From Alphaproteobacteria bacterium (GTDB lineage Bacteria; Pseudomonadota; Alphaproteobacteria; Rhizobiales; Xanthobacteraceae): DNA of 32,335 nucleotides. A model generated the notes under the pieces. That model ran no database searches. It was not told the DNA's origin and saw only the letters and a list, made by a program, of their open reading frames with translations. The stretch covers positions 1-32,335 of the forward strand of contig JAPLPD010000185.1 of NCBI GenBank assembly GCA_026400395.1. Reading direction: 5' to 3'. Both the position numbers and the translations under genes were made by a program. This document shows, one piece after another, positions 16,969-19,008 of this stretch. How positions within the stretch are numbered: the first letter of the stretch is position 1; each line of letters begins with the position of its first letter.

Positions 16969-19008
16969 GTGTTGCTGCACGGATCGTTCGGTAAAGCGGT
17001 CGCGGCCATCTTTATTTTGTTGGCCGCGATCAGCGCAGCATCGGCTCAGTCGCGGATCGCGCTGGTCATCGGAAATAGCGCCTATCAGAACGCGAGGCCG
17101 CTGGTGACGGTGGCGGGTGACGCCATGATCGTCGCGGAAACCATGCGCGCCGCCGGATACGATGTCGTTGAGGCGCGTGATGTGCTTTTGAATGACATCG
17201 GGCCGATCATACGCGAGTTTCTAGATAAGGTGAGCGCGGCGGGGCCCGAAGCCGTGGCTTACGTCTATTTTGCGGGATACGCAGCACAGTCGCAGGGTGA
17301 GAATTTCCTGGTACCCGTCGATGCTCGGATCGATAGCGACGACGACCTTCAATATCAGGCGCTTCGGCTCAACGACCTGATCCGCGAGATGATGTCGATT
17401 CCGGCAGCGGCGCGACTTGTTGTGCTGGATGCCGCGCGCGACCACGGCTTCGGTCGCGGCGGGCCCCGTCCGGTCGCGCAAGGACTGGCGCTGATGGATT
17501 TGCCCGACGGCATGTTGCTGGCTTCGGCAGCGGCGCCCGGCGCACTCGCCATCGACGGCGACGGCGACGGCGACGGCGACGGCTCCTACAGCATCTACAC
17601 CACCGCGCTGGTCACGTTCAAGCGCCAGCTTGGTCGCGACATGGAGCAAATCTTCAAAGCCACGCGCGTCCAGGTCAATCAGTTGACGAGCGGACGCCAG
17701 ACCCCGTGGATGGCGTCGACACTAACCGTCGATCTTCGTCTGTTCGATGCGCCGGCGGCAGCGGCCCCGCCACAGCAAGTCGCCGGAATTGCAATCCCGC
17801 CGAAAGGCGATCGCGTCCTCTCAAAGGATGGAATGCGCCGGCTTGGCCCCGATCAGGCTTATCAGGTCGTGATCGAAGAGGACGGTCTCGAGCCTTACCA
17901 ATGGTTCGTCGAACTTTATCCCGAGCATCCATCGGCCGGGCAAATCTGGCAGATCATCGACCAGCGCCGCGAAGCGGTCCTGTGGCGGCGAACGCTCGCC
18001 CAGGGTACGCGGAACGCTTACTGGAACTACCTGAAGCGCTATCCGAGCGGCGAGCACGCCGCTGAAGCGGAAAACCTTGTGGCAAGCCTGTCGGCACCGC
18101 GTCGGCCGCCGGTGACCTACGTGCCTGCGCCTGAGCCGTTGCCGCCCGACTACTACGATGAGGCCGTCGGTTTGGCCGAGATTTATCCAACCGACAATGT
18201 GTCGCCGATCATCGAGGTCTTTGAGGCGCTCGCGCCCCTGTTCATCGCGCCGCCCCGTTTTCGCGATTTCGGCCTAGGGCCGATCCGCAGGCCACCTCCG
18301 CCACCGCAGCCACCGTTCCGCGATCCGCGAATTGGACAAACGACGTTGAACGTGAAGTCCAATAACCAGGGGAACGACAATCCGAACAAGAATAATCATA
18401 GCGGCGTGAAGTGGACGAAGTCTCCGACCACATCACCAAGCGGGACGCAAACCGGCGTTCGTCGCGATCCGCCGCTTCCTCCGACTGGGCAGCCGGGCCG
18501 CACGCCGACCACGATCCCGCAGTCTGGGCAGCCGGGCCGCACGCCGACCACGACGCCGATCCCCTCGACGCCAACCCCGCCACAACCCGGCGTGCGCCCT
18601 GGCACTCCCACCGCGACACCGACCGTTCCCGCGGTGCCACCGACGGGCGTGCGGCCGGCGACGCCGACCGGCGCAAGACCCGGCTTGCCGCCAACAAGTG
18701 CGCCGACGCCAAATCCAAGCGTAGCCCGCCCGGCTCCGCCACCGACGGCAGCGCAGAAGCCTGGACTTCCGCCGGCACATGCGCAGCCGCCGTCGCGCCC
18801 CGTTGCGCCGCCTCAGAAGGTTGCGCCACCGCCGCGACCGGCTGCCCCACCGCCGCGCCCCGTGGCACGGCCAGCACCGCCGCCTCCGCGAGCGGCACCG
18901 CCGCCTCCACGACCCGTCGCGCGCCCGGCACCGCCGCCTCCACGGCCCGCGGCGCCGCCGCCGCGACTAGCCCCGCGACCGGCATGCCCGCCTGGCAAGC
19001 GCTGCTAG
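16969..19008 (+). CDS. Exported caspase-fold protein lacking the catalytic His-Cys pair (pseudo-caspase)
   Basis: This is a 679-residue protein with a GTG start supported by AGGAG seven bases upstream. Residues 1-27 are a signal peptide (ASAQ). A caspase p20-like domain (about 28-260) starts SRIALVIGNSAYQN and includes GENFLVPVDARI. The catalytic His of the usual YFAGHG is Tyr104 (YFAGYAAQ), and the Cys of DACR is Ala156 (VVLDAARDHGF). Both catalytic positions are therefore lost, so peptidase activity is not expected. Five Asp-Gly pairs occur at 196-205. A helical region (about 285-375) contains EAVLWRRTLAQGTRNAYW and YLKRYPSGEHAAEA, as in other rhizobial caspase proteins. From about 440 the chain is low-complexity Pro/Arg/Thr-rich and ends ACPPGKRC. 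It is probably periplasmic or surface-exposed. Function unknown; binding or scaffolding is a guess. It heads a row of four exported-protein genes. Confidence 0.85.
   Translation: MLLHGSFGKAVAAIFILLAAISAASAQSRIALVIGNSAYQNARPLVTVAGDAMIVAETMRAAGYDVVEARDVLLNDIGPIIREFLDKVSAAGPEAVAYVYFAGYAAQSQGENFLVPVDARIDSDDDLQYQALRLNDLIREMMSIPAAARLVVLDAARDHGFGRGGPRPVAQGLALMDLPDGMLLASAAAPGALAIDGDGDGDGDGSYSIYTTALVTFKRQLGRDMEQIFKATRVQVNQLTSGRQTPWMASTLTVDLRLFDAPAAAAPPQQVAGIAIPPKGDRVLSKDGMRRLGPDQAYQVVIEEDGLEPYQWFVELYPEHPSAGQIWQIIDQRREAVLWRRTLAQGTRNAYWNYLKRYPSGEHAAEAENLVASLSAPRRPPVTYVPAPEPLPPDYYDEAVGLAEIYPTDNVSPIIEVFEALAPLFIAPPRFRDFGLGPIRRPPPPPQPPFRDPRIGQTTLNVKSNNQGNDNPNKNNHSGVKWTKSPTTSPSGTQTGVRRDPPLPPTGQPGRTPTTIPQSGQPGRTPTTTPIPSTPTPPQPGVRPGTPTATPTVPAVPPTGVRPATPTGARPGLPPTSAPTPNPSVARPAPPPTAAQKPGLPPAHAQPPSRPVAPPQKVAPPPRPAAPPPRPVARPAPPPPRAAPPPPRPVARPAPPPPRPAAPPPRLAPRPACPPGKRC
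17554..17583 (+). repeat. In-frame GACGGC hexanucleotide repeat (5 copies)
   Basis: Five perfect copies encode Asp-Gly five times inside the caspase-fold domain, at the loop where relatives usually have a short DGDG-like turn before NSPYT. Changes of copy number would lengthen or shorten the loop without breaking the frame. Confidence 0.9.
18485..18553 (+). repeat. 39-bp period repeat in the Pro-rich tail
   Basis: Two 30-bp identical blocks (18485-18514 and 18524-18553) are spaced at 39 bases and encode two GQPGRTPTT units. Further downstream (about 18820-18990) shorter repeats encode PPPPRPAAP and RPVARPAPPPPR blocks. Confidence 0.85.

Follow-up and report, generated by a model that had tools for sequence, protein, structure and literature searches.

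A maintained caspase-fold protein with a lost catalytic dyad and a predicted export signal, linked to a Rap1a/Tai4-fold gene in Xanthobacteraceae

The closest described relatives of the gene reported here are the pseudo-orthocaspases of Klemencic et al. 2019 (PMC6426788), defined there as p20-containing homologues in which substitution has removed one or both residues of the dyad. The portions of that paper available to us describe Rhizobiales members with Tyr-Ala or Tyr-Ser at the dyad and long unannotated C-termini. They also report conservation, in pseudo-orthocaspases, of the two Asp with which T. brucei metacaspase 2 (TbMCA2) holds basic side chains, and propose that the alphaproteobacterial members, most of which occur in orders with phototrophs, go with photosynthesis. 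SyOC of Synechocystis PCC 6803 likewise combines a caspase fold with a dead dyad (Tyr-Gly), and its knock-out is viable with a stress phenotype (PMC7889975). The closest solved fold is that of human MALT1, a paracaspase that carries Ig-like domains and is proteolytically active with Arg specificity.

We analysed a 32,335-nucleotide stretch of a Xanthobacteraceae genome (GCA_026400395.1, contig JAPLPD010000185.1; hereafter the window), which carries a pseudo-orthocaspase gene at 16969..19008 on the forward strand, as do all features below unless noted. A preliminary description made from the sequence had noted that prokaryotic caspase homologues with substituted dyads exist, and the available portions of the 2019 paper, where such proteins are already on record, bear this out (PMC6426788). 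The window protein shares with that class the p20 domain, the lost dyad with common substitutions, the pocket Asp residues, the alphaproteobacterial host and a prolonged C-terminus with no named domain. It departs from the class in that its clade lies mostly outside the phototrophs to which the paper ties these proteins. In the portions available we found no report of three features: conserved linkage to a Rap1a-fold gene, a Cys pair closing the tail, and an association with phototrophy that is only weak. SyOC differs in belonging to another phylum, and we set it beside the window protein by description. MALT1 differs in its activity and Ig-like domains, and both of its S1-pocket Asp align with the window protein.

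The gene encodes 679 aa from a GTG start and is open throughout. A Shine-Dalgarno AGGAG (16958..16962) ends 6 nt before the GTG, and both same-genus orthologues have AGGAG followed by ATG at about the same place. Read by eye, residues 1-26 (16969..17046) form a Sec-type signal peptide, a hydrophobic stretch ending in ASA/Q, with a layout shared by the orthologues and with neither twin Arg nor a lipobox Cys in the N-terminus. The intact frame, signal peptide and ribosome binding site of the preliminary description therefore stand. Pattern scans for sigma-70 promoters and U-tract terminators around the genes returned nothing above shuffles, and no close plasmid copy of the gene was found. Upstream lies a tRNA-Gly (GCC) at 16412-16486, crossed by a 231-aa minus-strand ORF (16097-16792) that is probably spurious.

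Residues 27-260 (17047..17748) comprise a caspase fold with p20 and p10-like parts. Peptidase_C14 (PF00656) was the sole Pfam domain, at residues 29-256 with E 1.7e-27 and 97 bits against a curated cut-off of 21.4. An AlphaFold model of residues 27-420, built from a 59-sequence alignment, had a mean pLDDT of 89.9 and pTM of 0.89, and its best solved-structure matches were all MALT1 (Foldseek E 4e-15). The MALT1 superposition (Z 27.3, 210 residues, rmsd 2.3, 20% identity) extends over the entire caspase domain (model residues 1-234), the p10-like half of MALT1 included. Pfam score and MALT1 match place the protein in the C14/orthocaspase superfamily. Pseudo-orthocaspases carry no separate metacaspase p10 domain beside p20 (PMC6426788), and Pfam names none in the window protein, although the model does align with that p10-like half. 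Pfam found no Ig-like family in it at E 0.1, and it does not classify as a paracaspase (MALT1-like). Within the caspase domain, a tandem GACGGC expansion (17554..17583) encodes (Asp-Gly)5 and, in the alignment with orthologues, makes the window protein ~6 Asp-Gly residues longer there than any of them.

Both catalytic residues are replaced. Tyr104 (17278..17280) takes the place of the catalytic His in the motif YFAGYA, and Ala156 (17434..17436) that of the catalytic Cys in LDAARD. Profile alignment sets these motifs on YYAGHG and LDMCR of MALT1, so the correspondence claimed by the preliminary description is upheld at residue level by this alignment and at fold level by the model. The protein is thus not an active orthocaspase with a His-Cys dyad and falls within the pseudo-orthocaspases as defined above (PMC6426788, portions available). 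An alternative His-Cys pair in the active site was rejected because the caspase domain contains zero Cys; the whole protein has just two Cys, 673 and 679, both in the terminal stretch of the tail. The absence of proteolytic activity, as the preliminary description had proposed, would follow from the missing residues. We consider the window protein most likely to serve, after export, in binding or scaffolding and not in proteolysis.

A tree of 74 caspase domains grouped 32 Cys-less homologues into one clade (support 99/99), next to a clade of 21 His-Cys rows (100/98). Only one Cys-less relative fell outside, the divergent L074 (gene L005), whose placement is unsure. The Cys was retained in 0/32 clade members, where A, S or T replaces it; at the His position, 23 members have Y, 8 have H and 1 has Q. 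Since the Cys is never kept and the His position varies, the Cys was probably lost first with the His drifting; most simply, Cys loss would be the ancestral change of the clade and His drift a later one. Conservation of the substituted residues, which the preliminary description asked to be tested, accordingly holds for the loss of Cys and fails for the replacement of His. The window orthologues (46-72% identity) carry Y-S (G010), Y-A (G001), H-A (G070), H-S (G248, G295, G307) or Q-S (G145), and none has the normal dyad. Tyr-Ala members were also found in Bradyrhizobium, Rhodopseudomonas and Nitrobacter in a scan of named genomes. G145 additionally encodes a second Cys-less caspase domain (Tyr-Ala; L125:1742-4135), fused behind a papain-like Peptidase_C1 domain (E 5.8e-14) and before a DUF4384.

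The window genome (G000) has ~9 caspase-like places, five of them His-Cys loci (L001-L004 plus L008/L009, which adjoin in different frames). Of the others, L005 is Tyr-Ser and L007 (also L049; G000:C146:53328-54488) is a His-Ala paralogue with an in-frame TAG early in its caspase domain. With at least four intact His-Cys homologues encoded in the same genome, several with export-type N-termini, the window protein might regulate active orthocaspases of its own cell through mixed dimers or substrate competition (compare c-FLIP-L with caspase-8), and the fold matches of the model include, among others, an entry for the c-FLIP-L:caspase-8 complex. However, in the same search four genomes (G005, G007, G013 and G021; listed completeness 94-100%, contamination 9% in G007 and 6% in G013) gave one homologue each, and it was Cys-less. 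Members of the wider clade can therefore exist without an active partner, and a similar argument appears for unicellular cyanobacteria in the available portions of PMC6426788. We regard such a regulatory role as unlikely.

Two acidic residues of the S1 pocket were kept in 32/32 clade members. By profile alignment, Asp51 (17119..17121) is the equivalent of MALT1 D365 and TbMCA2 D95, and Asp154 (17428..17430) that of MALT1 D462 and TbMCA2 D211. Measured against the His-Cys sister clade, D51, G103, D118, D154, G172, L173, P190, P246 and W247 were kept in at least 31/32 members, and relaxed positions comprised residues 158-160, just past the lost Cys, and 202-203 in the Asp-Gly loop. Retention of D51 and D154 could alternatively have a structural role. 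The conserved pocket, and the frequency of Tyr at the His position of the clade, would also suit an enzyme that is not dead and retains some other catalytic activity through Tyr104 or another residue. We find this very improbable: the variation at both dyad positions leaves no constant pair in the clade, and the domain offers no Cys.

The window gene appears to be maintained by purifying selection, a conclusion well supported by sequence comparison. Nei-Gojobori dN/dS was 0.14 against G010 (431 codons, dS 1.59) and 0.18 against G001 (241 codons, dS 1.33), values that are approximate because dS is high, and the window branch (0.33) was not longer than its sisters (0.27 and 0.37). The TAG-interrupted paralogue on contig C146 and the frameshifts in the G001 and G307 orthologues as assembled might be read as signs of a relic on its way to loss. 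The G001 and G307 frameshifts may be assembly errors, however, and the window copy is intact over its 679 codons. We rejected the relic reading, to which we give very little weight, on dN/dS, branch length and the conserved substitution. The proposal of a maintained rather than decaying copy is borne out by the same dN/dS values and by the absence of any orthologue with the normal dyad and of the Cys anywhere in the clade.

A role in photosynthesis, as proposed for pseudo-orthocaspases generally from the orders in which most alphaproteobacterial members occur (PMC6426788, portions available), is disfavoured for this clade and has the slimmest of chances, as the reaction-centre family PF00124 was absent from the window genome (99% complete) and present in 3/28 genomes supplying clade members (G077, G086 and G107), a lower bound given that several genomes are incomplete, most being above 90% complete.

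Beyond the caspase fold, residues ~286-373 (17824..18087) form a helical repeat-like domain, corresponding to helices 260-347 in model numbering. It is conserved in orthologues at 54-74% identity, and its YfiO/BamD-like matches were weak (7/59 relatives). The tail that follows is Pro-rich over residues ~441-672 (18289..18984), as it is in the orthologues, where the sequence differs. It closes with the two-Cys motif CPPGKRC (18985..19005), so that the Pro-rich tail ending in Cys of the preliminary description is confirmed for residues ~441-679. The motif is also CPPGKRC in G010, and most relatives have C...C ends. A C-terminal Cys pair occurred in 12/14 full-length Cys-less relatives versus 6/39 His-Cys relatives (Fisher 4.7e-6, an optimistic value since the relatives are not independent), in tails where Cys is otherwise nearly absent (0.06 per 100 aa). 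On these sequence counts the motif appears to be beyond chance, and the pair probably forms a disulfide. Of the 4 matches from a genome-wide DNA-pattern search for the motif, 2 were real C-termini; with 5 matches in the control, this is too weak for a count. One 168-aa exported-looking protein of the window genome without a caspase domain (L134; G000:C86:2312-2347) ends in CFVFNGKRFCE, nearly identical to the end of that genome's own His-Cys caspase L004 (CFTFNGKRFCE). Exported proteins may thus share this terminal Cys motif as a module.

Downstream, the gene at 19103..19588 encodes an exported protein of the Rap1a/Tai4 fold. It matched PF18602 with E 2.2e-9 and 38.1 bits against a cut-off of 27.7, and its model, of middling pLDDT overall (70.5) and ~90 in the C-terminal half, matched Tai4 and Rap1a at Z 9.4-9.6 with the next fold at 3.8. 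Family score and fold together assign it to the Rap1a family, and it further resembles Rap1a/Tai4 immunity proteins in its signal peptide and in having, within its folded part, four Cys that are invariant. Known structural relatives of this protein block cell-wall-cutting enzymes, and Rap1a as a dimer blocks the active site of a cysteine endopeptidase (PMC3852654). Unlike Rap1a/Tai4 systems, the six genomes that carry the neighbour lack both Tae4 (PF14113) and the type VI secretion component VasE/TssK (PF05936), each found in 0/6. A type VI immunity role is therefore unlikely, and we rejected a Tae4-Tai4/Rap1a effector-immunity assignment.

Linkage of the pseudo-orthocaspase and the Rap1a-fold gene is conserved. 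Among 392 genomes of the family, eight have a window orthologue (at least 55% identity) and six have a homologue of the neighbour (E below 1e-30), all six carrying the window orthologue. The Rap1a-fold gene lies directly downstream of the pseudo-orthocaspase in G000, G010, G248 and G307, and in G001 and G145 the two genes run up to contig edges. It was undetected in the remaining two orthologue genomes, G070 and G295; the contig ends shortly after the orthologue in G295, but not in G070. Co-occurrence gave a Fisher value of 6e-12 across the family, inflated by shared descent, and 0.006 within the genus (3/11 genomes with both, 8 with neither). Just past the caspase stop codon is a perfect 11-bp inverted repeat (19014..19039), and hairpins of differing sequence occupy this position in G010, G248 and G307, hence in all four resolved cases with the window included. 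None has a T run. This position-conserved hairpin may end transcription between the two genes, which may therefore be transcribed separately. The neighbour is 79% identical to its counterparts in G248 and G307 and 49-55% to those in G010 and G001, opposite to the caspase pattern. These identities hinted at an in-place swap of the Rap1a partner, but the swap was not supported: an AU test did not reject a shared history (p 0.24). Two further window ORFs downstream (19589-19903 and 19997-20602) are small and export-looking, with no family above cut-off and no counterparts near other orthologues.

That the window gene specifies a maintained and exported caspase-fold protein without proteolytic activity is well supported, and we think it somewhat probable that this Sec-exported pseudo-orthocaspase acts by binding, in the following way. 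The nucleophilic Cys would have been lost in the clade ancestor, the His later drifting, in several lineages, to Tyr or to Gln, and the protein would work through binding instead of cleavage. Its acidic cleft, which in orthocaspases holds Arg or Lys, may still capture basic peptides or protein segments, and the helical domain may contribute a protein contact. The Pro-rich tail and terminal Cys pair would space or anchor the head in the periplasm or at the surface. The Rap1a-fold neighbour would be the likeliest partner. We infer the binding or scaffolding role, the basic-peptide binding and this partnership from the features above. A bolder and rather doubtful extension is that the two proteins make up a dedicated module of the envelope, in which the Rap1a fold, known to plug a cysteine peptidase at its active site, docks on the cleft of the dead caspase. 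A protease-inhibitor pair would in that case have been turned into a pair that serves as sensor, adhesin or decoy and has no connection with type VI secretion.

Bacterial pseudo-orthocaspases are numerous, with almost no assigned function. The clade described here, with the Cys apparently lost once, the His drifting and the pocket kept, provides a clean set for testing selection on a dead caspase fold, and the linked Rap1a-fold gene provides a concrete candidate partner. The reaction-centre tally argues against photosynthesis as the general answer for these proteins in Alphaproteobacteria.
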